Assembly: GCA_903919615.1 (NCBI GenBank)
Contig: CAIXIX010000209.1
Coordinates: forward strand, 1-60,286
Reading direction: 5' to 3'
Source of the DNA: an uncultured Chthonomonas sp.
GTDB taxonomy: Bacteria > Armatimonadota > Chthonomonadetes > Chthonomonadales > Chthonomonadaceae
Length of the DNA stretch: 60,286 nucleotides
Positions 11,233 through 55,994 of the stretch are shown piece by piece. The notes beneath the pieces are model-generated. The model was not told the origin of the DNA. It searched no databases and saw only the letters and a list, made by a program, of their open reading frames with translations. Within the stretch, counting starts at the first letter, position 1, and each line of letters begins with the position of its first letter. The translations under genes were made by a program, and so were the position numbers.

Positions 11233-11405
11233 GTTCCAACTCCCCCCTGAGAGATGAGTGTCTAAAGTATATCTGCCCCACCTAGACAGAGGCATAGTAT
11301 TGTGTCTAATTCCCGTCAGTGACGCACGAATCCTGCTACATCATACCCCGATTCGGTTCGAATATTGCAGATGTTTCGCAATAGTTCGCCTGTCATTTCT
11401 CCGCT

Positions 11406-33197: not shown

Positions 33198-35021
33198 TTA
33201 GTTCCCGGTTGGGCCAACGGAAGTCGTAAGACCGCCGCTAGTTGCGGTAACAGTGGTACCTGGCAGTGGGTCTGGCAGAATATTCGCAGTGATGAACACC
33301 AACAGCTCAGAATCGTTGGTATTGACACTATGCGATTTGAAGAGGCTGCCGATAAGGGGCAGATCACCGAGCAAAGGTACGCGCTGGGTGCTCGTGTTAT
33401 CCTGCTTACGGATAAGGCCAGCCAGTACCATCGTGTCTCCATTGCGGATAATTCGCGTAACTGGTGTTGTCTGCTGGATAAGGATTGGGTAGTTTGTTCC
33501 ATCCGGGCTCTGTGCGGTACCGTTCAAGTCAGTAAAGAGAAGTGTACCGTTCAGCGTAATGGTATTGTCACCATTAATTCTCGGCGTAACGAAGAGCACA
33601 GACGTTGCAGGGATTGGCTGCGGATAGTAAGTCGTCTGAGCTGCGCCACCTGGTCCAATAAACGTTTCCGGGATAAACGAATAGTAGGTGGTAGTGTTCT
33701 GGAAGGTAGCAGGTACGTTGTTAAACGTTGTCGCCATTGGCGCTGCAACAACCTTACCTCGGCCCGTTGTGAGAGCAAAGTTCATCTGGGTCTGCAGGTT
33801 GCCGGTAGCATACTGAAGTACAGCTTGACCGGTAGGAGCATACCCAGCGTTGAGTACTCCCAACAGGTTGACCTTCTGGAACTGCCAGTTGATACCGAAC
33901 TGATCGGCATCATTCTGGGTCACAGTTACGAACTGTGCTTTGACCTGGATCTGCTTCGGCTTAATGTCCAGCAACCGAATTCGCGTCTGGAGTTCACGGA
34001 AAGCCTGCTCGCCTTCCGGATCATCACGATATCGTACGATAATCGTGTTACTGTTTGAAAGAGCAGTGAGGTCTCTCGCCTGAATACCATCAGGCAAAAG
34101 GTTAGCTGCAGTCCCGCCGCCCTGACCGTTCTGGCCGCCGCCTAAACCGCCAGCGCCATTGCCGCCGCCGCCAATTCCGTTACCGCCGCCGCCTTGGTTG
34201 CCACCAAAGCCACCGCCGTTGCCCTGACCAAAGCCACCGCCGCCCATACCACCGCCGAAGCCCTGTCCCACGCGATTAAACCGGGGGTCGCTCGACCGAT
34301 TAGCCGTAGCTTCAACTGCGCCTGGAGTTGGGACTGCGGGTGCAACCTTCACCGGGTTCTCATAATTGGAATTAAAGCCTGGCACGAGTTTCGGCGCAAG
34401 ATTGGGAACTGCTGGTAAGGTTGGTGCGATGGGACTATCGTATCCCATAAGTTGAGACATGATCCCCGGAGTATTTACCTGAACCGCCGGACCACCCTCA
34501 CCTATAAGCTGTTGTTTAACGACTCGGGCGTCCGCATAGTTAAGCTTGATTTGGCCAAGTCGGGTTGGCACAGGGGCTGAAACATTGGTCGGAGCTACCG
34601 GAACGGAAACCTCTGTCAATACTGTGCTGGTTTCAACGTGTGTGCCCTTGGGCGCAATATGATACACACCAGCGTCCTGCCAAATATCCGCGCCAGCGGA
34701 AGCTGCGATATACTTCAGCACTTCGCTAACCGGCTTTGCGTGAACCGACAGAGTTACTCGATTATAACTTGTTTGATCGTTGTGAAACACAAAGCTGATA
34801 GCCTTGAGTTGTTTCTGGATCATCCCGATCGCAGCAGGCAACGACGTATCCGACAGCTCAACATCAAGCTTCGGGTCGCTGACAGGTGCTGCAACTTTGT
34901 GGCCAGCCGGAGAATCGTCATCGGCCAAGGCCTTCAGCGCGGCACCATTGAGCAGAGCAGCGCTCAATATACCTGCAAAAAGCAGGCTCGTCGCGTGCCC
35001 TTTCTGCCGTTGGAATCCCAT
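33198..35021 (-). CDS. pilQ: Type IV pilus secretin, cluster A (PilQ-like)
   Basis: Outer-membrane secretin subunit (607 aa). The ATG at 35021 has AAGGGGG upstream and starts a signal peptide (residues about 1-31, ending LKALADD); the longer frame to 35153 has no start signal. An STN-type N domain (about 45-115) contains VSEVLKYIAASAGAD. A second N domain follows and a Gly-rich insert (GGGMGGGGFGQGNGGG) around 235-290. The secretin core (about 310-585) contains VKAQFVTVTQND, GRGKVVAAPMATT, GDTMVLAGLIRK and VPLLGDLPLIGSLF, the C-terminal secretin signature. It closes with a Ser/Thr/Gly tail. Last gene of the pilM-N-O-P operon; partner in extrusion of the pilus. Confidence 0.93.
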   Translation of the reverse strand: MGFQRQKGHATSLLFAGILSAALLNGAALKALADDDSPAGHKVAAPVSDPKLDVELSDTSLPAAIGMIQKQLKAISFVFHNDQTSYNRVTLSVHAKPVSEVLKYIAASAGADIWQDAGVYHIAPKGTHVETSTVLTEVSVPVAPTNVSAPVPTRLGQIKLNYADARVVKQQLIGEGGPAVQVNTPGIMSQLMGYDSPIAPTLPAVPNLAPKLVPGFNSNYENPVKVAPAVPTPGAVEATANRSSDPRFNRVGQGFGGGMGGGGFGQGNGGGFGGNQGGGGNGIGGGGNGAGGLGGGQNGQGGGTAANLLPDGIQARDLTALSNSNTIIVRYRDDPEGEQAFRELQTRIRLLDIKPKQIQVKAQFVTVTQNDADQFGINWQFQKVNLLGVLNAGYAPTGQAVLQYATGNLQTQMNFALTTGRGKVVAAPMATTFNNVPATFQNTTTYYSFIPETFIGPGGAAQTTYYPQPIPATSVLFVTPRINGDNTITLNGTLLFTDLNGTAQSPDGTNYPILIQQTTPVTRIIRNGDTMVLAGLIRKQDNTSTQRVPLLGDLPLIGSLFKSHSVNTNDSELLVFITANILPDPLPGTTVTATSGGLTTSVGPTGN

Positions 35022-35191
35022 AAAGATGTCCCCCTTATCACGCGGGTAGTGAGCCAGCGTGGTTGATCGTGATGTAACCGCATCACTAAACGCTCGTGCG
35101 TTCTTTATCCGTTCGTAGTGTATTTCGTACCAGGAACCAAGCCGTGAGCTCACGTTGGCTGATCGTCAGCTCTCATTGATTTGACGCACAG

Positions 35192-35237: not shown

Positions 35238-35993
35238 TTAGAATCCTCTGCCGCCGCCACCGCCGCCAGACATTCCACCGCCCATGCCGCCGCCACTCAT
35301 GCCGCCGCCCATGCCGCCCATGCCGCCGCCCATGCCACCCATGCCGCCGCCCATACCACCCATGCCGCCGCCCATGCCGCCCATGCCGCCGCCCATGCCA
35401 CCCATGCCGCCGCCCATACCACCACCCATGCCACCACCCATACCGCCCATACCCATCTGCTGGACGCGGTACCCGACGTTAACGATATTTCCGCCGAATG
35501 CGGTAACTATATCGGTGGCGCTGAGGTTAGTGACATTGATGCGACCTAGCTTGTAGCCGCCGCTGTTGGGGGTATCTTTTTCTGGCTTCTCGGTACCTTC
35601 GGAGCTAAGGCTCTTATCGTCCTCTACCTTCGGCACCACGCTGTAGATGCCGTTCTCCACCTTGTATGTCAGTGGAGTATTGGTTGATTTTAATAAGGTC
35701 TCAAGTGCAACACGGAATGGCACCTGGGTCAGGTGAGCCGTGACCGTAAGCGCCTTGAGGGAGTCATCGATCGTAAAGTTAGCCTTTACCTGCGAAAAGA
35801 GCAATTTGAGACCGTAGTACAAATTGGTCGATTCAAGATCCAGGTCGATCTTCTTGTTTGCCGGGTCGTTCGTAGCTGTGTTCGACTGACCACCATCTTG
35901 TGCCTGCGCATTCGCGCAAACGGGCATAGCAACTAATCCCAGGGCCGTCAACGCGAGAGCTGACAGGCCAATTTTGGCGAATCTATCTAACAT
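35238..35993 (-). CDS. STN-domain protein with MGGMGGG heptad repeats
   Basis: Exported protein of 251 aa from the ATG at 35993, which has GGAGGAG 8 nt upstream. Signal peptide ending near residue 29 (CANAQAQD). An STN/secretin-N-like domain (about 45-115) has KKIDLDLESTNLYYGLKLLF and VPFRVALETLLKSTNTPLTYKV (each quoted in part). A short polar linker leads to INVTNLSATDIVTAFGGNIV, typical of secretin N1 folds. The last roughly 75 residues are almost only Gly and Met, in repeats of MGGMGGG. It carries secretin N-domain features but no pore domain. It lies between PilP and the secretin, so it may be a detached or plug-like N-domain partner of the pore. Confidence 0.8.
   Translation of the reverse strand: MLDRFAKIGLSALALTALGLVAMPVCANAQAQDGGQSNTATNDPANKKIDLDLESTNLYYGLKLLFSQVKANFTIDDSLKALTVTAHLTQVPFRVALETLLKSTNTPLTYKVENGIYSVVPKVEDDKSLSSEGTEKPEKDTPNSGGYKLGRINVTNLSATDIVTAFGGNIVNVGYRVQQMGMGGMGGGMGGGMGGGMGGMGGGMGGMGGGMGGMGGGMGGMGGGMGGMGGGMSGGGMGGGMSGGGGGGRGF
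35278..35440 (-). repeat. Tandem 21-bp coding repeat (MGGMGGG)
   Basis: About five to seven copies of a 21-bp unit encoding MGGMGGG, with silent and near-silent variants. Because 21 is a multiple of three, copy-number changes would keep the frame. Unit boundaries are approximate. Confidence 0.85.
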
Positions 35994-36269
35994 CGTTTCA
36001 TCTCCTCCGAACCATCGAACAGCATATAACAGATGCCCGGTGTTTCGGTATGTCCCGGGTGTATCAAGGTGCAGGCGTCTCTGCCTGGTGCGTAACATCT
36101 TACTGTTTAGCATCAGGATTTGATTAACGTAACGCCTACATAGTGATAGACGGGTCCAATAATCGAAACGACATTGCTAAACGAACATTCAACGATTCAC
36201 GATTCTACCAGATTATTCCTGCTGACTGGTGAGGTGACCGCTGATTTGTTTACATTGGAAACGAATCTT

Positions 36270-36995
36270 TTAGTCCGCTCCTTTACCACGCCCGGAACCT
36301 GGACCACCGCCAACCGGTCCAGCACCCCTTCCGGCGCGTCCACCAAATGATCCAGGGCCGCCAGGTCCTGGTCCTCGCGGCGCACCGCCGGTTTGACCGA
36401 ACGATGCAACGCTAGTACCAATCGGAGCATCGCTAAGTGGAACCTCCTGACGGTAGGTCACTTTGCCTTCTACACTCTCAAGGGTTACTGTCTGATCCTC
36501 GATGGATACGACTTTGTAACTGCGCGAGCCTGTAGACACTCCGATATCGATGCTGCTGCCGGGCTTTACAATATCGACTTTGTTAGACTGCTCGAGAATT
36601 GCAAAGACGCCGTCACCGGTCATGATTCCTGAGACTCTCAGCGCTGGTTCCTCACGGATAGTAACTCGTTTTGTAGGCGGTGGCTCTACATCAGGATCTG
36701 CCAACCGTACTGGCAATATCTTATCGAACACATACGGTGGCGGTGGCGGGACTGTCCACGGGATATAGAACGGGTCTTTACCCACGTGATGTGCAAGTTT
36801 ATACGGTGGAGCTGCGGGCGCCGCTTTACCGGCAGCCGGTCCAGCTCCTGGACCTTTTTGCCCGCCTTTTGGAACGCCCATCGGCGGTCCACCTGCCGGC
36901 GGCTGCTGTGCCAACGATACGCTGGTATGCATCACGCCTGCAACCAGTATCGCCGGAAGAGCCGCGGTCGCAGTGCATTTCAGTTTACGATTCAT
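36270..36995 (-). CDS. pilP: PilP-like pilus assembly protein with Gly-rich tail
   Basis: Periplasmic pilotin-type component linking PilN/O to the secretin (241 aa), placed where pilP always lies. Signal peptide about 1-29 (SVSLAQQPPAG). A Pro/Gly-rich linker (30-65) leads to KDPFYIPWTVPPPPP, like the PilP DPF motif. The beta-domain has LRVSGIMTGDGVFAILEQSNKVDIVKPGSSI (cited partially) and YKVVSIEDQTVTLES, matching the PilP/GspC homology-region fold. The C-terminal 45 residues are Gly-rich and end GGGPGSGRGKGAD, nearly the same tail as PilN and PilO. Identity rests on position and weak similarity. Confidence 0.75.
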   Translation of the reverse strand: MNRKLKCTATAALPAILVAGVMHTSVSLAQQPPAGGPPMGVPKGGQKGPGAGPAAGKAAPAAPPYKLAHHVGKDPFYIPWTVPPPPPYVFDKILPVRLADPDVEPPPTKRVTIREEPALRVSGIMTGDGVFAILEQSNKVDIVKPGSSIDIGVSTGSRSYKVVSIEDQTVTLESVEGKVTYRQEVPLSDAPIGTSVASFGQTGGAPRGPGPGGPGSFGGRAGRGAGPVGGGPGSGRGKGAD

Positions 36996-37028
36996 ACTGT
37001 GCTGTGCCTCCGTACCAATCCGTGCCGA

Positions 37029-37898
37029 CTAATCGCCGCCCTTTTTCGAGCCACTGCCAGGGCCGCCGCCGGACGCAGGTCCTCCTGTTGCAGGACCAGA
37101 CATTCCACTCTTGCCACCCATGCCACCCATGCCGTTTGCGGGGCCGCCGCCCATGATACCAGCGCCACCACCTGTACCACCACCGCCACCAGCGCCAATT
37201 CGCGTATCGGCCGCAGGAGGAGCAGTCCAGGGAATGACGTACATTGCAAGTGTATAGCTTAGCGTGAGTTCTGGGCTCTGACCGGAAAGCGCTACTTCGC
37301 TGATTACTGGCATCCCATGTCCAGTCATACCGTTTATTCTTCGAATATGCGCCATTGCCTGGTCAAAGCTCTTGCAAACAAGAGTTACATTCCAGGGTTG
37401 TTTTCCTCCGGGGAAGGTAATGCTCGTAAGCGAGGCCACACCGTTTGGATCAGTTGCAAGTGGTCCGATGGGAAACTCAACGCCTTCGGCGCGAGTGATA
37501 CCTTCGGATCGTTGGGCATCATACCATTTTGTGATCCAGGTGCCCTCTTCGGCGGGAATATCATTCACAGAGAGCTTCTGGCCTTTACCGCCACCGAAAT
37601 AGGCAACGAGTGGATCTTTGTCCAGATTGTAGTTGGGCATGTATTTTCGGGCATAGATCGACCAATCAGAGTTGATCTTGACGGTATCCTGTTTCGCGGA
37701 TACGAGATCCTTTTTGGCCTTGCTCAATGCCGAATCGGTACCGCCAGCTCCCTCAGCCGCGGATGCTGCCGCCTTGGCAGTCTCGGTATCCTGATTCTTC
37801 GGTTTGATCATGCCGAAGAACAGTATCAGGCCGAGAAGAAGAAATACGACGCCACCGATTATATGGACGTGCAAAGCGGATAATTTTGGTGATTTCAT
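37029..37898 (-). CDS. pilO: PilO-like inner-membrane pilus protein with Gly-rich tail
   Basis: Bitopic inner-membrane protein (289 aa): TM helix at about 12-29 (GGVVFLLLGLILFFGM), a coiled-coil-like stretch (about 36-75), then the ferredoxin-like periplasmic domain typical of PilO, with WNVTLVCKSFDQAMAHIRRING and SPELTLSYTLAMYVI. The last 65 residues are Gly-rich (GIMGGGP, GMGGMGGK) and end in GGGPGSGSKKGGD. It starts 7 bp after pilN. Known PilO forms a heterodimer with PilN; the Gly tail is not part of the usual family. Confidence 0.82.
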   Translation of the reverse strand: MKSPKLSALHVHIIGGVVFLLLGLILFFGMIKPKNQDTETAKAAASAAEGAGGTDSALSKAKKDLVSAKQDTVKINSDWSIYARKYMPNYNLDKDPLVAYFGGGKGQKLSVNDIPAEEGTWITKWYDAQRSEGITRAEGVEFPIGPLATDPNGVASLTSITFPGGKQPWNVTLVCKSFDQAMAHIRRINGMTGHGMPVISEVALSGQSPELTLSYTLAMYVIPWTAPPAADTRIGAGGGGGTGGGAGIMGGGPANGMGGMGGKSGMSGPATGGPASGGGPGSGSKKGGD

Positions 37899-37905
37899 GT
37901 TCTAA

Positions 37906-38853
37906 CTAATCCCCTTTGCCTCGGCCGCTACCCGGACCGCCACCGCCAGTTGAAGGCGCGCCCATTCCGGCTCCGCCTTTTCCACCTATACCGCCCATGC
38001 CACTGGAAGGACCGCCGCCCATGATTCCGGCTCCGCCACCACCACCGCCGCCTGCGGGCCAGCCTGGTGCAGGTTCGCCTCCATCGAGCGCTTCCTTGAA
38101 CACGATCGTGGCAGTAAAGTTAAGTCCATGCTTGCCGCGAAGTTCACCAGGACCTACTGCATCGCTTGCTGCAGCGCCGCGGCCGGCGCCGCCACTTAAG
38201 CCTGCTGCACCTGCGCCAGTCATAACCGCTTGCATACTCTTAAGCTTGTTGCCTGCGCTCATGGTTCCACCAGAGCCTGGTCCATTGCCACCACCCATCA
38301 TTGGGCCGCCGAATCCACCAGGGCCGCCAGCGCTCGCAAGTGCGGATTGTGGCGTGTAGGATTTCGGAATTGTATCGAAATTAACGTGGTCAAACAGCGG
38401 GTTGCTTCGGAGCTGCTTCCACCAATTAATGACTGTTGCTTCGTCTTTGCCAAATCCCACAATGCTAACAGTTTTGTGCTGCGCAGGATCGATGTACAAA
38501 GACTTCAGGATGATCGAAGCGTCTGTGGGAGTTACATCCCGCACAACTTCGAACATGCCAGCCCATGAGTCGTTATACTTGCGGCCAGCGACAACGAATT
38601 TCTGCTTAGTCTCGATGTCGGCTCGTCGCTGCTTTTCGTCGTTGATCTGCTTGGTTACACCATCGGTCTGGCTCTTGAGCTGTTCCTTGGCCGCCTGATC
38701 ATCCTTGGCTGCCTGCAGGTTATCAGCGGCTGTCTTGTTAATGAACAGCAGGAAGAGCGCCAGTGCGAATACTGCTACTCCCCAGCCGATGCCAAGGTTG
38801 CGAATTTTGTTTTTACTATGGATATAGTCTGGAAGCAGGTTGATGCGTAGCAT
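37906..38853 (-). CDS. pilN: PilN-like inner-membrane pilus protein with Gly-rich insert and tail
   Basis: Fimbrial-assembly protein (315 aa). It starts with the conserved MLRINLLPDYIHSK, the PilN cytoplasmic motif that docks in the PilM groove. TM at about 22-40 (GWGVAVFALALFLLF) is followed by a coiled coil (40-85) and the periplasmic domain (FEVVRDVTPTDASIILKSLY). A Gly/Met-rich stretch of about 60 residues splits the C-terminal beta-strand region (HGLNFTATIVFKEAL). The final 55 residues repeat GIMGGGP and GMGGIGGK and end GGGGPGSGRGKGD. The last module is shared with PilO and PilP. Between pilM (88 bp) and pilO (7 bp). Confidence 0.88.
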   Translation of the reverse strand: MLRINLLPDYIHSKNKIRNLGIGWGVAVFALALFLLFINKTAADNLQAAKDDQAAKEQLKSQTDGVTKQINDEKQRRADIETKQKFVVAGRKYNDSWAGMFEVVRDVTPTDASIILKSLYIDPAQHKTVSIVGFGKDEATVINWWKQLRSNPLFDHVNFDTIPKSYTPQSALASAGGPGGFGGPMMGGGNGPGSGGTMSAGNKLKSMQAVMTGAGAAGLSGGAGRGAAASDAVGPGELRGKHGLNFTATIVFKEALDGGEPAPGWPAGGGGGGGAGIMGGGPSSGMGGIGGKGGAGMGAPSTGGGGPGSGRGKGD

Positions 38854-38941: not shown

Positions 38942-40357
38942 TTATTTCTTCTTTTTCGGAGCCTTGCTCTTGGCCTTGTTTGCACTTGGATCAGAGATTA
39001 GGTCCCGTGCGCCAAGACCGATGCTTATCGGGAATAGCGGCGACAACTCGTGAGCGTAGGTGGGCGACATCGACTTGGCCGTAAGCTGAATGTTACGGAA
39101 TGTGTCGGGAACTCTAGCAGGAACCCCAAGCTCCAATTCCAGGAACTGTGCGAGGTTCTTAAGGTTAGACGTGCCGCCTACTAACAACAGTTCGTGAATT
39201 GGCACATCGCCGGCTCGACCACGATAGTAATCAAGTGAGCGACGTATTTCCTGAACAAGCTCTCCGAGTACCGGGGCAATCGCCGCAAAGACCTGTGCTT
39301 TGAAGGCATCTCGCGCAGGATCGGAAGCAGAAACTGACGCTGGCAGGTTATCGACCGGGGCAGGCGCCGCTTCAAGAGGCTCCTCAAAACCCAGCGGAGC
39401 TCCGCTGGGAGCTTCAAGCGATTCACCCGGTGTAGCAAAATCGAAAGGCATTCGACCGGAAGGTGACGCGGTTGCGGATTGATCCGGACTTGCAAACGGG
39501 TCGGTTGGGGAACCAAATGGATTTGGCGCTGGCGCAGAGAAATCCTGGAAACCGGGAGCGCCGAAGGCCGCGCCGCCACCAAAGTCTGGCACTGGCGCGC
39601 TTAGCTGATCGAGAAGGACTTCACCGTACTCAATCTTGTATTTCTCTGCAGTAGCCTGATCGACACCCAGTGTGGCAGCGATCGCACGAGTCAAATTATC
39701 GCCTGCAAGTGGTAGTGTTCGGGGAAAGGTCAACAGCCGATCTCGGAATATACCGATTTCGGTATTTGACGCACCGATATTGATGATCGCTACTGTGTGC
39801 CCTATCGGACTTTGGTCGGCATCCATATCGAGAAGCGTTCGTCCGAGAGCCAGTGGCTCGACGTCGATGTATTTCGGCTTTAGCCCTGCCGCATTCAGCA
39901 TCTCGATATGGCGATCCACAAAATCCTGCTGAGCAACAGCCAGCAGCACGTCCATGTTCTGACCCTCGGCGTAACCTTCGGGCCGATCGATCGGTGCATA
40001 GTCCATGATCACTTCGCTGTTCGCGAAGGGTACATGGCGCTCAACTTCCCACTTCATCGTTTCGGCCAGCTCTTTCGAGTCCATTTGAGGGACCTCGATT
40101 ACGCGGACAACGACCGCGGACTGCCCTGAAACCGAACTGACAACATCCTTTGTGCCTATACCCGATTGCTTGAGCAGCGCCTTTACGGCCTGTCCTAGCA
40201 ACTGAGCATCCACGACGTCACTCTGAGCGTAAGCCTCGGGAGGCGTCGGAGCAACACCTAGCGCAACAACTTGCACCTGATTGCCCGATCGGCGAAGCTC
40301 GGCAACCTTAATCTGGTTGGAGCCGATATCCAGCCCGACATATGATCCACCCGCCAT
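38942..40357 (-). CDS. pilM: PilM-like actin-fold ATPase of the pilus inner-membrane platform
   Basis: Cytoplasmic actin/FtsA-like protein (471 aa from the ATG at 40357, with GAGGT 9 nt upstream; a GTG-type extension to 40393 lacks support). N-terminal YVGLDIGSNQIKVAELRR, the PilM ATP-binding start, then EVPQMDSKELAETMKWEVERHVPF (cited partially), INIGASNTEIGIF and LLLVGGTSNLKNL. A Pro/Ala/Ser-rich insert of about 80 residues (about 245-325) interrupts the second half. The C-terminus is a Lys-rich tail (KSKAPKKKK). It is the first gene of cluster A, with the promoter at 40421-40449. Confidence 0.9.
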   Translation of the reverse strand: MAGGSYVGLDIGSNQIKVAELRRSGNQVQVVALGVAPTPPEAYAQSDVVDAQLLGQAVKALLKQSGIGTKDVVSSVSGQSAVVVRVIEVPQMDSKELAETMKWEVERHVPFANSEVIMDYAPIDRPEGYAEGQNMDVLLAVAQQDFVDRHIEMLNAAGLKPKYIDVEPLALGRTLLDMDADQSPIGHTVAIINIGASNTEIGIFRDRLLTFPRTLPLAGDNLTRAIAATLGVDQATAEKYKIEYGEVLLDQLSAPVPDFGGGAAFGAPGFQDFSAPAPNPFGSPTDPFASPDQSATASPSGRMPFDFATPGESLEAPSGAPLGFEEPLEAAPAPVDNLPASVSASDPARDAFKAQVFAAIAPVLGELVQEIRRSLDYYRGRAGDVPIHELLLVGGTSNLKNLAQFLELELGVPARVPDTFRNIQLTAKSMSPTYAHELSPLFPISIGLGARDLISDPSANKAKSKAPKKKK

Positions 40358-40420
40358 GCTGTATCTACCTCGATTCGGCCGCCACCTATGCAAACACTAG
40401 ATTTGCGGCAGATTGGCCTG

Positions 40421-44089: not shown

Positions 44090-44485
44090 TTGGAAGATAA
44101 CACAGCATCAAATCTACCGGCCCTGCGCCTGGAAGCCCCTCAAATTCTGGAGGACACACGGCTCTGGGGGACGCAAACTCAGCTCACGCTTAATGAGTCG
44201 ACGTCGGTTGCATTCTTAAAAGTCAATCCTGGGCAGGCGCTAAGTGAACAGAGTCACAAGCTTCGCAGCGAGCTCTGGATCGTCCTTGAAGGTGAGATGG
44301 ACGTGGAACTGGATAGCAAAATATTGAGACTATCCGGTCTCGGTGCCAAAGTATTTATACCGGCAGGAGCCCACCATCGGGCATATGGGCTGGATCAACA
44401 ATGCACGTACATGGAGATCGCATACGGACATTATGATCCAGAGGACATCGTTCGATACAAGGACATGTACAACAGGGCTATTTAG
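44090..44485 (+). CDS. Cupin-domain protein, mannose-6-phosphate isomerase-like
   Basis: Single-domain cupin (131 aa) resembling the C-terminal isomerase domain of type II phosphomannose isomerase/GDP-mannose pyrophosphorylase proteins: FLKVNPGQALSEQSHKLRSELWIVLEGE (cited in part; the RSE.W.VL.G cupin motif) and KVFIPAGAHHRAYGL for the second cupin motif. Start is a TTG at 44090 with a GGAG-type site upstream; an earlier TTG at 44075 is possible. The nucleotidyltransferase half is absent. Its stop codon overlaps the stop of the convergent pilus gene by four bases. Confidence 0.75.
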   Translation: MEDNTASNLPALRLEAPQILEDTRLWGTQTQLTLNESTSVAFLKVNPGQALSEQSHKLRSELWIVLEGEMDVELDSKILRLSGLGAKVFIPAGAHHRAYGLDQQCTYMEIAYGHYDPEDIVRYKDMYNRAI

Positions 44486-45156
44486 GGTGCAAACGATGCA
44501 GGAATACTGCCGGCTCGCATATCTGGTGGGTCTTGAAGGGCCGCAGTTTTTGACGAAGCCGCCCCACCGCCACGGATTAATTTTTGACCCAGTGTCAAGC
44601 GAATGGTGAGGCCATCCTGCGTGATGAAAACGGCGCCAGTTGAAATGCTTTTGAGCCGGGTAGAGGTATCAATTGCCGCTCCAGGAGAAAGATACCGAAC
44701 CGTCTCTCCCTCACGCAACACTGCGACAGCAACCCCTCGGTCGTCGGCCATAATGCCTTGCAGTTCAAGGTCTTGCAGCATGGACCGGATACCTAGTGGG
44801 CCGCCAGGGCCACCAGCGCCCAGCGCCGGTAGGCCATGAACGCCTGCCGTGCCTGGACCACCCTTGTTCTGCTTTTCTGCGTGCTGAGAAGCGTAAAGCA
44901 GCGGATTCGACTTCGCAACCTCGTCAACCACATAGGGCCGCCAAAACGGATCTGTTGGTGGACCCGCTGCTATCGGCGCAGTCACAATCGGGGCTGCAGC
45001 GGCTACATCATGGGACACAACCGTTATAGGCGGTGGCGCATTCTGTGGCGGCTTAGCGGCGCTAGCGCTCAACCTGAACGCCACAAATACGATTGCCAGT
45101 ATAATCAGCGGCAACAGAACCGCGATCTTGCCTTTGTCTCCAGGTTGAATGACCAT
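44482..45156 (-). CDS. GspC/PilP-like inner-membrane protein, cluster B
   Basis: Bitopic protein (224 aa). TM at about 13-32 (VLLPLIILAIVFVAFRL), Pro/Ala-rich linker with TDPFWRPYV, then a Gly-rich stretch (LGAGGPGGPLG). The beta domain has LQGIMADDRGVAVAVLREGETVRYL and LKSISTGAVFITQDGLTIRLTLGQ (each cited in part), which matches the homology region of GspC and PilP that binds the secretin N0 domain. Last gene of cluster B, 61 bp after the secretin. Start: ATG at 45156 with GGGAG upstream; a GTG one codon earlier is possible. It is the functional counterpart of PilP in cluster A, without the common GSGRGKG tail. Confidence 0.75.
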   Translation of the reverse strand: MVIQPGDKGKIAVLLPLIILAIVFVAFRLSASAAKPPQNAPPPITVVSHDVAAAAPIVTAPIAAGPPTDPFWRPYVVDEVAKSNPLLYASQHAEKQNKGGPGTAGVHGLPALGAGGPGGPLGIRSMLQDLELQGIMADDRGVAVAVLREGETVRYLSPGAAIDTSTRLKSISTGAVFITQDGLTIRLTLGQKLIRGGGAASSKTAALQDPPDMRAGSIPASFAP

Positions 45157-45217
45157 CACTGTCTCCCTTCACAGCACAGCAACTCCTCGCGCACGTAACG
45201 CTCGATTCGTGTTTGCG

Positions 45218-47146
45218 CTACTTGGTGAGGTGAGGCGTTATAAACACCATGATCTCACTCTTGGTATGGCTGGTAGAGGTGTTGCGGAAAAGCTGACCAA
45301 CCAGTGGAAGGCGGGATAAGCCTGGAACTTCCTGTACGGTTTTCGACATCTCATCCCTGATGAGCCCGCCGATAACGACTGTCTCTCCATCATGAATGCG
45401 TACAACGGTCTCAGCTTCTCTGGAGCTCGTCTGTGGTAGGTTGTCGCTGCCGATGCTTGTTATGGTGCTCACAACCGGATGCACACGCATTGTGATGTCT
45501 CCATCGGGATTCACGATAGGCCTAACCAGCAGAATTATACCGACTGGGAACTGAAATACCTGGACGGTTGTGCCCGAGATTCCGGATTGAGAGACTTCCA
45601 CATTTAGAGTGTCCCCAATGAAGATACTTGCATCGTCCTTATCCAAGACTTGTATTCGTGGTGTTGCCAGAATTTTTGCATCGTTATGACTCACCATAGC
45701 ATTGACGGTCGCCTGGATTGAGCTTGGTACTTTACTGAAATACCCGAACGGCAACGGTACTGTACTTGGTGAGCTAATAGTACTGCCTGTTAACGCTGTG
45801 CCAGGCTTAGTTTCTAATGCGTTTAGCGATGACCAGTTCCAGGTGACTCCGAGGTTTGAAGTAGATTGTGGTGAAATATCCACAACCTGGACCTCTATCA
45901 TCACCTGCTTCGGAGCAATGTCCACCTCTGCAAGCAGCTTAAATGCGAGATCAACGTTGGAGTCTAAACCGCTGATGACAAGTGACGTTGCCTTTTCGCC
46001 TTCATTTGCTTTGCCAACTCCGCCCGTGTCGGCTCCTGCGCCAGAGCCCGAACCGCCTGTTGCTCCACCGCCGGACGAACTTCCACTCCCCGATGAGCCC
46101 GATCCTCCACTCCCAGAGCCACCCGGCGAGCTGCCGCCGGCTCCTCCGGAAAGCGCAGACGTAAGGGGTTTAAAATCCGCTTCGCGTGGTGACGCATGCT
46201 CGGGTCCAATTATCGCCGTAATGTCCGGCATCGCCTTTTGTATGAACATGCGCAGCGAGCCTGGTTGACTGTATTTAACAGGATAGATTCTGTAGACTTG
46301 CTTAGGGGTCGTAACGACGGGTGTCGAAGCGTCCAGCTTGGCAAGGGTTGCCCTGGCCGCTGCAACCTGGGTCGCCGGCCCGACGAGTCCCACGGCGCCG
46401 CCAACCTTTGCCGCGCCAGCAACAGCCTGAGCTTTAACATCTGGATAGAGGGTTTGAAGTAGGGTCGCTGCCTGTTCTGCAACGAGGGCATTTACTGGGC
46501 AGACTTCAGAGCGCTGTTCAACGGGCGCTGGCGGGCGAACCTCTGCGGCAAGGAGCGTTTTGGCAAGGTTAATATCCTCCTGCGCGCCTACGAGCATTAA
46601 CTGCCTCCCGGCCGGTCGAACCGTTAGGTAGGGAACGGCGCCAGCCAGCAATGCAACTGCCTGCACTGTGGGAAGCCCGTCCAGGTTCACCATTGCGGTG
46701 TCACCAAAGGACTCGATCATCAGTTTCAAGTCGCCGCTTGTTGCGACAAAATACCTATGATTCATCTCGCGGAAAGTTAACCCGGCGGCAGCGGCGGCAA
46801 ATCCGATCGCCTCATTTACGGAGTTAGCGGTCATGTTGATCGATATCGGTCTTTTCAGCAGGGCGGAATAGACGATACTTGCGTGGGTCTTTATACTGAT
46901 AGCCTGCAATACATCGGAGACGTCGGTATTGACGAATTGCAGATGAAACTCGGTTCCTGGCGCACTTGCGCCTCTGGGACCGACCTGTGCCCATACTGGC
47001 CCACTCCAGGATGCAAGCAGCGACGAGACAGCACATATCGCAATCAATCCAGCTCCTGTGAATTGACGCTTGTTCGTCGTAGATGTCGACGGCGAAACTC
47101 GATTTTCGCGCGGATCGACCGTGTTGCATGGTCTAAATCGCATCAT
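45218..47146 (-). CDS. Secretin, cluster B (GspD/PilQ family)
   Basis: Outer-membrane secretin (642 aa from the double ATG at 47146/47143, with AAGGGA upstream). Signal peptide about 28-53 (GLIAICAVSSLLASWSGPVWAQ, cited in part). Two or more N-domains: FVNTDVSDVLQAISI and a second repeat with VNLDGLPTVQAVALLAGAV. A Gly/Ser-rich linker at about 330-385 separates them from the secretin core (VMIEVQVVDISPQSTSNLGV, NDAKILATPRIQVLD, GETVVIGGLIRDEM, VPGLSRLPLVGQLFRN). The C-terminal signature is intact. The distinct N-domain set and Ser-rich linker differ from the Gly/Met-rich cluster A secretin, so the two are likely to serve separate machines. Confidence 0.92.
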   Translation of the reverse strand: MMRFRPCNTVDPRENRVSPSTSTTNKRQFTGAGLIAICAVSSLLASWSGPVWAQVGPRGASAPGTEFHLQFVNTDVSDVLQAISIKTHASIVYSALLKRPISINMTANSVNEAIGFAAAAAGLTFREMNHRYFVATSGDLKLMIESFGDTAMVNLDGLPTVQAVALLAGAVPYLTVRPAGRQLMLVGAQEDINLAKTLLAAEVRPPAPVEQRSEVCPVNALVAEQAATLLQTLYPDVKAQAVAGAAKVGGAVGLVGPATQVAAARATLAKLDASTPVVTTPKQVYRIYPVKYSQPGSLRMFIQKAMPDITAIIGPEHASPREADFKPLTSALSGGAGGSSPGGSGSGGSGSSGSGSSSGGGATGGSGSGAGADTGGVGKANEGEKATSLVISGLDSNVDLAFKLLAEVDIAPKQVMIEVQVVDISPQSTSNLGVTWNWSSLNALETKPGTALTGSTISSPSTVPLPFGYFSKVPSSIQATVNAMVSHNDAKILATPRIQVLDKDDASIFIGDTLNVEVSQSGISGTTVQVFQFPVGIILLVRPIVNPDGDITMRVHPVVSTITSIGSDNLPQTSSREAETVVRIHDGETVVIGGLIRDEMSKTVQEVPGLSRLPLVGQLFRNTSTSHTKSEIMVFITPHLTK

Positions 47147-47192
47147 GCTCGTCCCTTCTGCAGCTCTGTGGTTAACGCTGTAAGCAGCCGAT

Positions 47193-47738
47193 TCATATTT
47201 TGCTGACAAAGCGAGTGATGTTGAACATGAGGGACTCGTCCGGCGGTTTCGCATTGCGCGTCCATTTCAGGTGCCCTACCACAACAAGCCTGTCAACTTT
47301 CACGAGCGCCGCCAGAAAACTGCGCAGTTCTCCATAAGAGCCGCAAACTGAAATCTGGTTGCAGCTTGGCATTATGGCGCTCAACTGAGCCTTTAACTCT
47401 GGGCTTATATTCGCCGGTGTTGAAACGCTGTTCGCCGTTGCAGAGGTCCAGCGCGTCAGCCTGACATGGTTCTGGTCCGCAACCGTTCGAATAAGATTTA
47501 AAAACTCCACTTGTTCCTGCCGAGAGTCGTGAACCGCAGCTACGAACCCTGCTTTGCCCCGCTTTTCGACACTGTCTATCAGAGCCATGGCGGAATCATT
47601 GGATACAGTTACTGTCTTGATATCACCTTCGATTGTGCTGATGCGAACCGACTCGTAAGCGCTCACAGCCCAGGCAACTAAGAGGCATAATACAGCGCTA
47701 ACTACGGCTGCAATCCTGTACTTAACTGTTCGGTTCAT
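47193..47738 (-). CDS. PilO-like protein, cluster B
   Basis: Inner-membrane protein (181 aa). TM at about 10-27 (AAVVSAVLCLLVAWAVSA), a short coiled coil, then a ferredoxin-like periplasmic domain with FLNLIRTVADQNHVRL, SYGELRSFLAALVKVDRLVVV and a terminal hydrophobic MFNITRFV. The ATG at 47738 has GGAG 6 nt upstream. It follows the PilM-N fusion with 16 bp and precedes the secretin, the standard M-N-O-(P)-Q order. Short for PilO but with the same plan. Confidence 0.75.
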   Translation of the reverse strand: MNRTVKYRIAAVVSAVLCLLVAWAVSAYESVRISTIEGDIKTVTVSNDSAMALIDSVEKRGKAGFVAAVHDSRQEQVEFLNLIRTVADQNHVRLTRWTSATANSVSTPANISPELKAQLSAIMPSCNQISVCGSYGELRSFLAALVKVDRLVVVGHLKWTRNAKPPDESLMFNITRFVSKI

Positions 47739-47754
47739 AGCTCGCTCCGAATTC

Positions 47755-49407
47755 TCATTGCAGGTTGAGTGAAACTTGATAGTGGAGCCTCGTGGTTTTC
47801 GCCGCGACATCGCGGTCGAGACTATCCAGAGAAACTTTGCTAAACTCAGGTCGCTGACGCATGGTGTCCATCATTCGCACCAGTACCGAGTCGGCGCCCG
47901 CATCGCCACTGACGGTTAATGTCGCATCGGAACCTTCCATAGAGATCTCGAAGACAGACGCCTGCTCCGGCACGGAAGAGCACACGGCATCCACGATTGC
48001 AGGTACAGGGGTTGCCCCCGGCTTTACGAGAACATCGCGCATTTCAGTCTGCATACGCAGGTCCTCGATTTTGAGACCTCTGTACGTCTCGAGCCGCCTG
48101 GCTTCGCGGCGTACTGCCGTTAGACGCTCGCGGGCAGTCTGCAGGTTATGAGTTAGTCTTATCGCATTAAGGCAAGATCCAACCATAATCAGGATGCAAA
48201 GCAGCAAGGCGACAACGAGATGGTTGTACGCGACCGGTTTTTTTGTCTCTTGTGGATCGCGCCACATAAGATCCATGCTTGGCACGTATGCGGGTATCTG
48301 GTCAATAACCTTTAACGCAAACCCACACGATGCCAGGTAACGCGTCTTCTCTTCTGCACTCACAGTTACAGACACGCGAGCGTTTTCGATCGAAGCGAAT
48401 TGGGTTAACTCAACCCAGAACGCCTCTACATGCGTGTTATGTTTTAACCATTGCGCCAGTGGTTCCAGGAGATCTGTATCCGAGCACACCACAATCCGAT
48501 CAAGGAGTTTAGCCTCAGGATATTCACGATAGTAATAGTCCATCGAACGGCTAAGCTCCATCAGGAGCTGGTTCGCTGATGACTCATCGGACTGACCTGC
48601 TGTATTAAAAAGGCTATCGAGTGGGTTAGACTCTACTTCTGGTGAATCGACGTCTCCAGCAAGGTTTGTGCGCTGTGGCGCAGCGGTCGGGGGAGAGGGT
48701 ATGTCCAGATCACCTGTCTGGCTAATTGTCGCGATGTCGGTTAGCAGCTCTCTGCTGCCCACATCGATCCTGCGGTATAGCCGCAGCGGTCCATTCTCAG
48801 CTATTGCGAGCTCCGTTGCAGTGGAACCCACCATTAAGTACAGTGTAGGTTTCGGCTCTGGATCGAACGCAGCAGCACAGCGAAAAAGACCGATTAAGCC
48901 AGGTTCCAGCCCGATAAGCTTTAGTCCCGCAAGGCTTGCAATGGCCAGGTACGGTTGAATGGCGGCAAGTTCAGCAGCCATCAAGACGACGCGCGGTCGT
49001 CCACGGCCTCCCGCATCGCGGGTATCGAGATGGTGAACGGCATACTTTCCACCCGGAGAAGCAAGAATGCGCTGATGCTTGATCTCACCCTGCATCAGGG
49101 CATCGAATTCGTTTTCCGGCACCTGTGGCACATCAATCACACGCGTTGCAATCTTGTTGGTGGGCACTCCCATCACAACGTTACGCGATGTGACCTGCAT
49201 GCTGGCTAGGAGCTGTGTAAGCGCCTTTGCAACCAGGTCGGGGCGTATGATTTCGCCATCGAACATACTGCCCGGCGGCAACGGTAGCCAATCGGCATTG
49301 ATAATTTCTGGCTTCGACCAGATACCGCTAATCTCGATTGCCCGAATTTCAGTCGGGGTAATGTCGATGCCCAGCAGCGGCTTGCCCCGTTTTTGAATAG
49401 TAGCCAT
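47755..49407 (-). CDS. PilM-PilN fusion protein
   Basis: Single 550-aa frame joining two normally separate pilus platform proteins. Residues about 1-380 are PilM-like: LLGIDITPTEIRAIEIS (actin-fold start), VVMGVPTNKIATRVIDVPQVP, YLMVGSTATELAI and LLMELSRSMDYYY. Residues about 398-550 are PilN-like: TM helix LVVALLLCILIMVGSCL, coiled coil (NLQTARERLTAVRREARRLE), then the periplasmic fold with PAIVDAVCSSVPEQASVFEI and LHYQVSLNLQ. The usual conserved INLLP docking motif of PilN is missing, as expected when the two chains are covalently linked. First gene of cluster B and downstream of a dyad promoter. Confidence 0.85.
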   Translation of the reverse strand: MATIQKRGKPLLGIDITPTEIRAIEISGIWSKPEIINADWLPLPPGSMFDGEIIRPDLVAKALTQLLASMQVTSRNVVMGVPTNKIATRVIDVPQVPENEFDALMQGEIKHQRILASPGGKYAVHHLDTRDAGGRGRPRVVLMAAELAAIQPYLAIASLAGLKLIGLEPGLIGLFRCAAAFDPEPKPTLYLMVGSTATELAIAENGPLRLYRRIDVGSRELLTDIATISQTGDLDIPSPPTAAPQRTNLAGDVDSPEVESNPLDSLFNTAGQSDESSANQLLMELSRSMDYYYREYPEAKLLDRIVVCSDTDLLEPLAQWLKHNTHVEAFWVELTQFASIENARVSVTVSAEEKTRYLASCGFALKVIDQIPAYVPSMDLMWRDPQETKKPVAYNHLVVALLLCILIMVGSCLNAIRLTHNLQTARERLTAVRREARRLETYRGLKIEDLRMQTEMRDVLVKPGATPVPAIVDAVCSSVPEQASVFEISMEGSDATLTVSGDAGADSVLVRMMDTMRQRPEFSKVSLDSLDRDVAAKTTRLHYQVSLNLQ

Positions 49408-49458
49408 CGCGAATTGCCTCGTCTGATGAGTCGTTCTTTGTGTCTAAGGCGCGTATCT

Positions 49459-49503
49459 ATTCTGGGTAATGGACGCGTAAATAGGCGTCTGCGTAGTGGC
49501 AGA
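49459..49503 (-). promoter_or_regulatory. Dyad-class promoter of cluster B (pilM-N fusion)
   Basis: Minus-strand dyad TCTGC-CACTAC-GCAGA (49503-49488) followed after exactly 23 bp by CAGAAT (49464-49459). No -35 hexamer. Leader of about 45 nt. Same geometry as the sites at 52883, 55995 and 57405. Confidence 0.7.
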
Positions 49504-49572
49504 TTTTGAAGATTGGCTGAATAATCGTGCTGAGCTGCTTATCAGTAGCACATTAGAAAGGTGAAATTCGGT

Positions 49573-49863
49573 ATGAGTGATACAGAGGTTCCGTGGAGGT
49601 CAGACGCATCTCTTGAGGATGTTCTGTCGATTATCGAGCTATGGATTAACAGGAATGACCTGTCACACGCCGATCCCGTAGAATTGAGAACATTCCCTGG
49701 CAGTCTTCACTGGCATCTTCGGCGTTCAGGAATTAGCGGGACCCTGGAGCTAACGGTGTGGCCGGCGCAACGCCGAATCTGGATGTCGCGACGTGCAAAT
49801 CGGGATGCCCCCTGGATTGGTGAACTTCCGGATGAGTTTTTTCGATTCATGAGTAGGTCGTGA
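49573..49863 (+). CDS. Small hypothetical protein
   Basis: Not recognised (96 aa from the ATG at 49573; a GTG at 49561 is an alternative). Soluble, Trp- and Arg-rich in its second half (LHWHLRRSGI, RRIWMSRRANRD). The only gene on the plus strand among the cluster B genes, facing the prepilin operon, with its start near the dyad at 49488. Could be an unrelated passenger. Confidence 0.5.
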   Translation: MSDTEVPWRSDASLEDVLSIIELWINRNDLSHADPVELRTFPGSLHWHLRRSGISGTLELTVWPAQRRIWMSRRANRDAPWIGELPDEFFRFMSRS

Positions 49864-49873
49864 TTTTGTGATT

Positions 49874-50506
49874 TCAGTGGCCCGAAACGGTTCGTGATCC
49901 ATTAGCAAGTCGCACGGGGCTTGTGTAGGTGCGCGTAGTCTGATCAATTACATAGGTGATTGTAATATTTACCGCTGTCACTTGCGGAAGTTCTGCTGCC
50001 GTTGGTGCATTGGGGTTCGCCGTCGTCTTCCAGCAGGAGCCGACGGACGGAGTGTATCCAGTTGGGATGTAGTAAGTGAACTGCAAGCTCTTTATGGAAT
50101 TTGACAACACGAGGCTCGTTCCTGAAATTGTGCTCTCCAGGCCACCTGGATCCGTAGTCGTATTGAACCAGTACTGCGCAGTATCACCAATCATGTCCGT
50201 ATAGATCGTAATGCTGGTTGAGGATGCAGCCGATAGCGCGGCGCCGCCTGAGCCGTAGGGCTGAGCCTTACGAATGCAATCCACAAGGTTATCAAGCGGA
50301 CGCCTGGCCTGAAAATCGGCCTGGTTCTGCTGCATTGTTTCTTGAATTGACGTGATATTAATCTGCATGAATCCCATGATCATCGTGCCTATCACCCCAA
50401 GGCAAAGGCACGTCATCAGCGTCTCGATCACCGTATAACCATGCAGTTTTCTCAGCCTCAGGGAGCGAATCTCTCGTTTCGAGCCATGGCCAACTCGGAT
50501 CATCAT
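49874..50506 (-). CDS. Minor type IV prepilin (PilW/GspJ-like)
   Basis: Prepilin of 210 aa. Prepilin peptidase site KLHG^YTVIETLMT with conserved Glu at +5 of the mature sequence, then a hydrophobic helix (CLCLGVIGTMIMGFM). The globular region contains YWFNTTTDPGGLESTI and ends YTSPVRLANGS. Start is the ATG at 50506, overlapping the stop of the preceding prepilin (ATGA); a second ATG follows at 50503. Likely part of the pilus-tip priming complex with the next two genes. Confidence 0.8.
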   Translation of the reverse strand: MMIRVGHGSKREIRSLRLRKLHGYTVIETLMTCLCLGVIGTMIMGFMQINITSIQETMQQNQADFQARRPLDNLVDCIRKAQPYGSGGAALSAASSTSITIYTDMIGDTAQYWFNTTTDPGGLESTISGTSLVLSNSIKSLQFTYYIPTGYTPSVGSCWKTTANPNAPTAAELPQVTAVNITITYVIDQTTRTYTSPVRLANGSRTVSGH

Positions 50507-50967
50507 AGTCCTCCCTGAGTCAGGTAGTAATTGACTGAGCAGATCACGGTGCCAGTTGCCTGCTGTTTTACAGATACTGTCACCAATCTTAAGGCTGTCG
50601 CGGACGGTTGCGCGGGTGTCGAGACCACGCTTGTGGAAACTTTAAATCGAGCATTGGACGAATTTGAGTCTTCGTTATCACCATTAATTCCATAATAGTG
50701 AACCGTGGGGCTTGCGACCGAAGCTTCAGGTGTGTTGGTCCATCCCATTTCGATCACCTGCTCGAGAGTCTGCCGTTCAAGGTTATATCCGACTGCCAAA
50801 TCGTTCCCTCTCGCAGAGATGTTGAATAAGACCAGCCATAGCTGGATCATCACTGAGAGACATAGCATTCCTATTAGCGAAGCTACCAGCACCTCCACGT
50901 AGCTCATGCCTCTGTGGCGCCGGCGCCGCCTTTGCGAATTTGATGTGCTTATTTCTGTGAACTTCAT
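50503..50967 (-). CDS. Minor type IV prepilin (PilV/GspI-like)
   Basis: Prepilin of 154 aa. Leader RRRRRHRG^MSYVEVLVASLIG with Glu5 of the mature chain and a long hydrophobic helix (LVASLIGMLCLSVMIQLWLVLF, cited in part). The C-terminal half has LRLVTVSVKQQATGTVIC, typical of the pseudopilin beta-sheet. It is coupled by an ATGA overlap to the next prepilin and follows the PilX-like gene by 16 bp. Confidence 0.8.
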   Translation of the reverse strand: MKFTEISTSNSQRRRRRHRGMSYVEVLVASLIGMLCLSVMIQLWLVLFNISARGNDLAVGYNLERQTLEQVIEMGWTNTPEASVASPTVHYYGINGDNEDSNSSNARFKVSTSVVSTPAQPSATALRLVTVSVKQQATGTVICSVNYYLTQGGL

Positions 50968-50983
50968 GTACGTGGCTTACCCT

Positions 50984-52249
50984 TCAGTAGAAGCCGCCAA
51001 CCTCTGTCCAGTTGTTGGAAACCGCATAATAGATGGATCCTCCAAGACTGAAATAGCCGCTTGTGTAGTTCACGGTTGGCGCGCCATTAAACGTAAACAT
51101 GTTGGAGATAATTGAACCGTTAATCACCGGGTTGCCGTTTATGATGACTCGGCCGCTGCCGCTGTTGTTTAAGCTGTAAATGCCTGCATCAATTTCTGTA
51201 TTACCGTTTTGCTGAATATCATTTGTGGTCCCGAAATAGATCTTTACGGGTTTCGTTGGGTCTGTGGCCATTTTGACAGTAGCGGTACCGCCGTTAAAGA
51301 CAAATGTGGAACTTGAACCGCTAGGGCCAACCCAGATATTAATCGGCCCATTGGTGTTATTGAACGCAATCTGACTGCCACCGTTGCAGGTAAGACTTGT
51401 GAGGTAATAGTTCGCGCCTCCCGCTTTTCCAACAAAGGTCTGTGTTCCGCTGTTTATCAAAAGCGTTGTACTGACTATTGCGGGGCTAGCCAGAGCGTTG
51501 TCGTTATGGCTTGCAACATAACTGAATCCTGTTGAGCCGAAGGCTGAGACGGCGACAGCCTCCGCGGTTGGCCACGATTGGGCAGTGGCATTGTGAACAA
51601 CGGTGTAAGTCTTGTTTGGGGGGCTTTGCCAGTTAGAACTGGCGCCATTAAATACAACGTTGCCATTTACTGTTGGCCCGTTATTGAAAGTGAAAAATCC
51701 ATTCGTACCTACACTGCCATTCACGACTGTGGACGACTGATCCATGATTCCCTGGGATGCTCCAAATGCAGCATACGCGCTTCCGCCGCCGCCGCTTCCC
51801 ACGGGAAGAGCCGTGACTTTTACAGTGCGGGAGATGCCGTTAACCGTGGCTGTTGAGTAGACATTCATGTTGTTTCCTGAAGTCCACGGTGTTGACTCGG
51901 TGCCGCCGGCGCTCACTTGCATTATATAAACAGAAAACGTGCCTGCGGCTGTGGTGTAGCTGGTGCCCGGCGCTCCAGAGCCGTTCTTTTGATCGGCATT
52001 CGCTGAATTAACCGCAATTTTATTGAGTTCATAATTCACGCCGGCCTGAGCCACATACAACGCGTTGTCGTACGCCTGACCTTTCTGAACCGCCATGTAG
52101 TCAGAAACGACAAGTGAGCCGATACCTGCAATGATGATGCTTGTGATGAGAACGAAAAAGAGAACGGTTAGCAGCACCGCTCCGCGATTACTGCTTGTGC
52201 TCTGTGGCACGCGAGAACTGCAGGTGATAAGTGTCGGCTCTGTTCTCAT
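50984..52249 (-). CDS. PilX-like/repeat-rich pilus-associated protein
   Basis: Protein of 421 aa from the ATG at 52249 (a TTG start at 52330 would overlap the terminator). One hydrophobic helix near the N-terminus (about 24-45: VLLTVLFFVLITSIIIAGIG, cited in part) without a clear prepilin peptidase glycine motif, then a helix with ALYVAQAGVNYELNKIA as in PilX family minor pilins. From about 185 onward it is rich in Asn, Gly, Ser and Thr with FNN/FNG repeats (FFTFNNGPTVNGNVVFNGA, VFNGGTATV, MFTFNGAPTVNY). This periodic, non-repetitive pattern suggests a beta-helix adhesin-like domain. It leads the minor pilin operon. Confidence 0.7.
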   Translation of the reverse strand: MRTEPTLITCSSRVPQSTSSNRGAVLLTVLFFVLITSIIIAGIGSLVVSDYMAVQKGQAYDNALYVAQAGVNYELNKIAVNSANADQKNGSGAPGTSYTTAAGTFSVYIMQVSAGGTESTPWTSGNNMNVYSTATVNGISRTVKVTALPVGSGGGGSAYAAFGASQGIMDQSSTVVNGSVGTNGFFTFNNGPTVNGNVVFNGASSNWQSPPNKTYTVVHNATAQSWPTAEAVAVSAFGSTGFSYVASHNDNALASPAIVSTTLLINSGTQTFVGKAGGANYYLTSLTCNGGSQIAFNNTNGPINIWVGPSGSSSTFVFNGGTATVKMATDPTKPVKIYFGTTNDIQQNGNTEIDAGIYSLNNSGSGRVIINGNPVINGSIISNMFTFNGAPTVNYTSGYFSLGGSIYYAVSNNWTEVGGFY

Positions 52250-52309
52250 TGGAGTGTCTTTTGGGCGCACTTGATCTTCGGATAACCAGGCATACTGGTT
52301 GGGAAATCT

Positions 52310-52352
52310 TAAAAAAGAGATCTCCGGCAAACTGTGTCGTCTGCCGGAGATC
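52310..52352 (-). terminator. Rho-independent terminator of the single pilin gene
   Basis: GATCTCCGGCA and TGCCGGAGATC form an 11-bp stem with a 12-base loop (arms 52319-52329 and 52342-52352), and on the minus strand a run of six T follows. It lies 65 bp past the pilin stop and isolates the pilin from the PilX-like operon. Confidence 0.9.
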
Positions 52353-52416
52353 CGCTAGATCAGCTCAACTGACCAACATCGCATAGTAAAACCATGTCGA
52401 GTTGTTTGTTTCGAGA

Positions 52417-52806
52417 TTAGTAACCCGGCTCGAAATCGGTGTGGCCTGCGATACTGCAGTGAACTTTAAAGCTGGCTGCTGTGGTACCAGCTACGATCGT
52501 GTAGGTACCACCTGCAGGGCAGACGGGAACCGTTTTAAGATCGGGCTCGAGCGCAACGCCAACCGCGCCAGCTATGTAGGTCGAGTAGTCGGTCTGTGTG
52601 GTACCGGCTGCTGTTCTTGCTGCCTGAACCGCGGTCGAGATCGTCTGCATGTTTGCATGGCAGGTTTTCGTCTGTGAATCTGCTACTGAGCTCAGGTAGA
52701 GTGGCATTGCAATCGCCATCAAGATGGAGAGGATGAGCACAACGACCAGCAGTTCAATCAGTGTGAAACCAGAAGCCTTGCGATTCGTCCGAGAATTGCC
52801 GTACAT
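52417..52806 (-). CDS. Type IV pilin/GspG-like pseudopilin
   Basis: Small pilin (129 aa). Class III leader: KASG^FTLIELLVVVLILSILMAIAMPLYL (cited in part), with the conserved Gly before the cleavage and Glu5. The globular part includes ANMQTISTAVQAAR, TVPVCPAGGTYTI and a Cys pair. The ATG has AAGGAGG upstream, the strongest Shine-Dalgarno in the area. It is transcribed alone, between terminator and dyad promoter, consistent with a high-expression major pilin. Homologous to the tandem pilins at 57558 and 58048. Confidence 0.92.
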   Translation of the reverse strand: MYGNSRTNRKASGFTLIELLVVVLILSILMAIAMPLYLSSVADSQTKTCHANMQTISTAVQAARTAAGTTQTDYSTYIAGAVGVALEPDLKTVPVCPAGGTYTIVAGTTAASFKVHCSIAGHTDFEPGY

Positions 52807-52882
52807 GTTGACCTCCTTATGGTCTGCAAACCTTTGCTATAGAGTGACGGCTCTTTGTCCGTCGTTTGTTGATTACGTCCCC

Positions 52883-52927
52883 ATTGTATAATATGCTGTT
52901 GCCACCTTTCGTCTGCCGAATAGCATA
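52883..52927 (-). promoter_or_regulatory. Dyad-class promoter of the single pilin gene
   Basis: Minus-strand TATGC-TATTCG-GCAGA (52927-52912; one mismatch in the distal half) followed by CGAA and, after exactly 23 bp in total, TACAAT (52888-52883). Leader of about 70 nt. It shares the ten-mer GGCAGACGAA with the promoter of the tandem pilins. Confidence 0.75.
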
Positions 52928-52949
52928 TTTTGTCAAACAGAATTAGAAC

Positions 52950-54164: not shown

Positions 54165-54166
54165 GT

Positions 54167-55879: not shown

Positions 55880-55994
55880 TAGATCAAACCCTGTTCTATT
55901 GCAGCTCGTAATGTCAAGGCGATCTGGCGCAGCCTGGTCCGAAAAGCCCGCCGAAGCCCGCGCCGATGCAACAGGAACGCACGGCTTCATCGGG

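Follow-up and report, generated by a model that had tools for sequence, protein, structure and literature searches.

Matching glycine-rich C-terminal tails on PilN, PilO and PilP in a type IV pilus cluster of an uncultured Chthonomonas sp.

The DNA analysed here, a stretch of 60,286 nucleotides from an uncultured Chthonomonas sp. (hereafter the window), carried a type IV pilus gene cluster (cluster A) on the minus strand. The cluster began with pilM (38942-40393), whose product matched TIGR01175 (E 3.4e-68) and was the cytoplasmic partner without a Gly-rich tail. It was followed by pilN (37906-38853, 315 amino acids), pilO (37029-37898, 289 amino acids), a pilP-like gene (36270-36995, 241 amino acids), a gene for an STN protein (35238-36113), which is secretin N0-like and carries its own (GGM)n tail, and a gene for a PilQ-like secretin (33198-35153; PF00263, E 2.8e-32) with an internal Gly-rich insert at about residues 301 to 340.

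PilN scored 20.6 bits against PF05137 in a protein scan, slightly below the 22.8 cut-off, and 23.5 bits, above the cut-off, in a genome search. A profile of PilN relatives matched Myxococcus PilN (3jc8, E 2e-10), and the N-terminus (MLRINLLP) fit a short cytoplasmic motif followed by one transmembrane helix; the protein had the domain, the motif and the helix of a PilN. No sequence match was found for PilO in Pfam and NCBIfam scans. Its AlphaFold2 model, with a transmembrane helix, a coiled coil and a ferredoxin-like domain reaching to about residue 221, gave Pseudomonas PilO (5uvr) as the top Foldseek match, with a probability of 0.99 but an E value of 0.024, and Akkermansia Amuc_1100 was among the next-best matches. 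This predicted architecture and the position of the gene after pilN were those of a PilO. The putative PilP had no match in the Pfam and NCBIfam scans either, and it was provisionally assigned by its operon position, its signal-peptide-like N-terminus and orthologues at the same place. The STN protein scored 18.0 bits against the STN family, which is below the Pfam cut-off, and had an N-terminal match to TIGR02515; its gene contained tandem repeats at 35260-35450.

The first-pass annotation had drawn attention to similar endings on PilN, PilO and PilP, and these were present on the minus strand. The tails covered residues 269 to 315 of PilN (37909-38049), 231 to 289 of PilO (37032-37208) and 200 to 241 of PilP (36273-36398), and they ended in GGGGPGSGRGKGD (37909-37947), GGGPGSGSKKGGD (37032-37070) and GGGPGSGRGKGAD (36273-36311), respectively. 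PilN and PilP had the 11-residue word GGGPGSGRGKG in common. The words GIMGGGP and GMGG(M/I)GGK, previously noted in PilN and PilO, were found in both, the first as part of the 11-residue GGGAGIMGGGP. When the tails were compared with 5000 composition-preserving shuffles, the longest common word had P values of 0.0004 for PilN-PilO, 0.0002 for PilN-PilP and 0.02 for PilO-PilP (7 residues), and the C-terminally anchored score had P values of 0.006, 0.0002 and 0.0004 for the same pairs. None of the tails of 48 other genomes equalled, against a window tail, the anchored score that the window tails reached with each other. The sharing was thus beyond chance, but the earlier description of the partners as non-homologous was too strong for PilN and PilO, which were not wholly unrelated: each had a transmembrane helix, a coiled coil and a ferredoxin-like domain. 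Outside the tails, the DNA of pilN and pilO was similar at chance level only.

AlphaFold2 models of PilN and PilO, based on alignments of about 20 sequences, placed their tails beyond the folded parts of the proteins. PilN was predicted to have a long helix and a ferredoxin-like domain, with a low-confidence tail from residue 269 (pLDDT below 50) and a second Gly-rich, low-confidence segment at residues 165 to 231 (38161-38361, minus strand; pLDDT below 50), which lay as a loop inside the ferredoxin-like domain between strands 154-160 and 234-238. The PilO tail also had pLDDT values mostly below 50. These values were consistent with disordered tails, although low pLDDT is no proof of disorder. 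The view that the tails are no part of the known family domains and are located on the periplasmic side was supported.

A profile of the PilN domain matched 224 of 291 Armatimonadota genomes. Named relatives belonged to the Armatimonadota, mostly to Chthonomonadaceae or Chthonomonadales. PilN and PilO were taken from 49 genomes and PilP from 48 of them; the open reading frames and partners were chosen automatically and checked in part by eye. With a Gly-rich tail defined as at least 12 Gly in the last 60 residues, such tails were found on PilN in 45/49 genomes, PilO in 42/49 and PilP in 36/48, and the ends were charged in many genomes, often basic and then acidic. Exceptions included PilO of genomes G055 and G248; in G248 (L177, 1482-2256), a highly acidic end, EEEEEDEEEDEDEDEEDEEEEEDD, replaced the Gly-rich tail. 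Comparison across species showed Gly-rich tails that were kept in most genomes while their sequences differed. The idea of one fixed tail module was not borne out, and a conserved or transferable module with the same sequence in orthologues was rejected, since the ending GGGPGSGRGKG(x)D was missing from all three proteins of G001, the one same-genus genome compared. We found no report of such tails in the open-access literature searched, a scope that takes in few subscription journals.

As judged from their sequences, each genome appeared to have its own tail vocabulary, common to its PilN, PilO and PilP. For example, the PilN and PilO ends were IKLRLGGGRN and KIRLRMGGGGRD in G207 (L174) and EEELEEELE and EEELEAELEE in G286 (L171), so the matched part exceeded the Gly-rich stretch. 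The PilO and PilP ends were SRYGMTGT and TRYGMQGT in G231 and GAEEY and LLEEY in G200. For all three pairs, local alignment scores were higher within than between genomes in global and in family-stratified permutations (p = 5e-5, the floor of 20,000 permutations, with phylogeny only partly modelled). After correction for composition, by z against shuffled partners, the mean z within and between genomes was 3.19 versus 0.98 for PilN-PilO, 1.42 versus 0.74 for PilN-PilP and 1.47 versus 0.71 for PilO-PilP (p = 5e-5 each). The matching was strong for PilN-PilO and modest for the pairs with PilP, and PilN-PilO was the only clearly significant pair in the f3 family. Met content co-varied between the PilN and PilO tails (rho 0.80), and tail lengths did not co-vary in the surveyed genomes. 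The STN tail, which is encoded by a neighbouring gene in the operon and has a higher Gly content than the PilN, PilO and PilP tails, did not match them in 35 genomes (p = 0.79, 0.03 and 0.11), which argued against a genome-level bias for Gly-rich sequence.

Recombination between neighbouring genes, which had been suggested as a source of the shared tails, was visible in several relatives but left no DNA trace in the window. The pilN and pilO tails were 94% identical at the DNA level over 111 nt in G016, 88% over 112 nt in G027, 84% over 117 nt in G042, and 82% over 74 nt in G014, compared with 68-69% in two sister species of the last. Because this identity of 82-94% in at least four genomes was limited to the tails, local recombination must homogenise them; the process was real, but episodic, and in these four genomes the PilN-PilO pattern was that of concerted evolution by gene conversion. 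PilN-PilO codon identity exceeded a within-tail codon shuffle in 5/49 genomes (2-3 expected by chance), with the top three at z >4, and PilN-PilP codon identity did so in 0/48 (292 versus 288.4 expected). Recent DNA copying was rejected for the window, where codon identity was at expectation for all three pairs (for PilN-PilO, 12 observed and 12.1 expected). In GGGPGSGRGKG, only 3/11 aligned codons were identical between pilN and pilP, and their Ser codons differed (AGC versus TCC), so a recent DNA copy cannot explain this word. Constraint at the amino acid level or very old copying is therefore needed. Whether the tails converged independently or were converted long ago and then drifted silently while keeping their residues, constraint on the residues would be required.

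Three partners of one periplasmic ring kept matching tails, and weak association between the tails is therefore proposed as their likeliest function. The reading that we favour, and to which we give about an even chance, is that the PilN-PilO-PilP alignment complex of one Armatimonadota type IV pilus system is extended in the periplasm by these disordered tails, and that the matched tails associate weakly and multivalently. The three tails would evolve in concert, with a vocabulary set genome by genome. Episodic copying of DNA, by gene conversion or unequal exchange, keeps the adjacent pilN and pilO tails alike in some relatives, and elsewhere, including the window, selection at the amino acid level for matching tails would have kept residues while codons diverged. 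The Gly/Met/Pro-rich chains with their short charged end, possibly extended in a polyproline-II- or polyglycine-II-like form, would bind each other, help keep the PilN/PilO/PilP ring together, presumably in the service of pilus assembly, and perhaps connect the ring to the STN protein and the secretin, which are likewise Gly-rich. The common added function proposed in the first-pass annotation was made likely by retention across the phylum and by within-genome matching in which STN takes no part.

The main rival is that the tails are tolerated spacers whose GC-rich Gly repeats are homogenised by frequent ectopic conversion, with no common function. No functional reading is needed if recombination among neighbouring stretches of Gly-coding DNA is simply frequent and the cell tolerates the tails, and gene conversion in the distant past, with synonymous drift since then, could mimic selection on residues. 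The confinement of DNA copying to the tails, the wide differences between genomes and the strongest match lying between the adjacent pilN and pilO all fit such homogenisation. However, the PilN-PilP match came with no codon-level excess, within-genome matching stayed when the five genomes with codon-level copying were left out, and the window tails showed expected codon identity and the AGC/TCC serine. The tails were also kept across the phylum, and the equally repetitive adjoining STN gene took no part. We consider neutral homogenisation possible, but somewhat unlikely.

A more specific form of the functional reading is that the tails are mutual, species-specific matching tags, which would bind one another, with gene conversion and selection keeping the three in step as the tag changes. 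This proposal is tentative and, in our judgement, rather doubtful; if it were true, a mixture of tails taken from several species would fail to function.

The tails might instead bind peptidoglycan or another envelope polymer, so that their flavour follows the envelope chemistry of the species and their likeness stems from a ligand that they share instead of from contact with each other. Their periplasmic position and the charged ends in many genomes would suit such binding, and a common ligand would explain a match among three proteins with no copying of DNA. Against this, Pfam and NCBIfam scans of the whole PilN, PilO and PilP proteins found no known peptidoglycan-binding motif (no LysM, AMIN, OmpA-like or SPOR domain), and the modelled PilN and PilO tails had no predicted fold. 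Nothing was found in favour of the peptidoglycan binding raised earlier, and we regard a common envelope ligand as improbable.

Within the genome, Gly-rich tails were rare. In a background set of 382 mechanically called open reading frames from 60 other contigs (512,778 bp), 3 had at least 12 Gly in the last 40 residues, compared with 4 of the 6 type IV pilus proteins of cluster A (Fisher test, P = 6e-7). The paralogous PilM/N, PilO, PilP and secretin genes of cluster B (44482-49407, minus strand) encoded proteins without Gly-rich tails, having 3-7 Gly among their final 60 residues compared with 21-31 in PilN, PilO and PilP of cluster A. A genome-wide tail vocabulary was rejected, since GRGKG occurred 21 times and a control pattern 17 times; the readable cases beyond PilN and PilP lay in unrelated non-tail contexts, and none of the proteins checked in a search of the genome for the tail motif was a further carrier. 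A genome- or operon-wide drift in composition toward Gly-rich, low-complexity ends, which two more Gly-rich exported proteins in the window (9179-10129 and 10210-11295) and the (GGM)n tail of STN might suggest, was largely refuted and is very improbable in view of the 3/382 background frames, the tailless cluster B paralogues, the matching that survived composition correction and the unmatched STN tail. For the same reasons, general Gly-codon expansion alone did not account for the pattern.

Low-complexity disordered tails are poorly tractable by alignment, and within-genome matching offers a sign of joint action by such tails that can be tested, here controlled by a negative from the same operon (STN) and by a tailless paralogous operon. 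The relatives, from a phylum that has hardly been studied, also show how a tail can pass from gene to adjacent gene by recombination and so come to be carried by several proteins of one machine.

Cluster A resembled the type IVa PilM-PilN-PilO-PilP systems of Pseudomonas, Myxococcus and Thermus in gene order, in its PilM and PilN families, in the fold of PilO and in the secretin gene downstream. To our knowledge, the well-studied type IVa PilN, PilO and PilP extend little or not at all beyond the folded domain, as judged by length and not residue by residue. In contrast, the window proteins had Gly-rich tails of about 40-70 residues, PilN had a further Gly-rich loop within its domain, and the STN (N0-like) part of the secretin was a separate Gly-tailed protein encoded upstream of the secretin gene. 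This split arrangement was also seen in many Armatimonadota loci. Relatives of PilM, PilO and the secretin were recognisable in the Akkermansia Amuc_1098-1101 system through the Amuc_1101 and Amuc_1098 family models and the fold of Amuc_1100, with scores of the window proteins against the NCBIfam models far below the equivalog cut-offs. We know of no Gly-rich tails in that system.

Two further comparisons bear on the nature of the tails. As when gene conversion makes tandem repeats or paralogues evolve in concert, neighbouring copies were closer to each other than to orthologues, but the homogenised parts here were low-complexity tails on otherwise dissimilar proteins of one complex. The C-terminal Gly/Met-rich tails of GroEL take up polyproline II helices (PMC12571646). 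GroEL/Hsp60 is likewise a ring-forming protein with a short, disordered Gly/Met-rich C-terminal extension, and by analogy it may show that a low-complexity tail which is extended and sticky is physically plausible. It differs in being a single cytosolic chaperone with a conserved tail, whereas several proteins carry genome-specific tails here.

Other loci with related genes or Gly-rich proteins were also seen. Cluster B was part of a second type IV pilus or type II secretion-like cluster without Gly-rich tails (44482-55990, minus strand). A third PilN-family locus, type II secretion-like, lay outside the window on contig C436 (L202), and its protein at the PilO/GspM position had no tail. The adjacent exported proteins encoded at 9179-10129 and 10210-11295 (minus strand) matched no Pfam family. 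They had long Gly-rich inserts, one with PGRGQGKGGDGGG and the other ending in GGVGAD, and they were 37% identical, partly through Gly-rich stretches, so they were probably paralogues.
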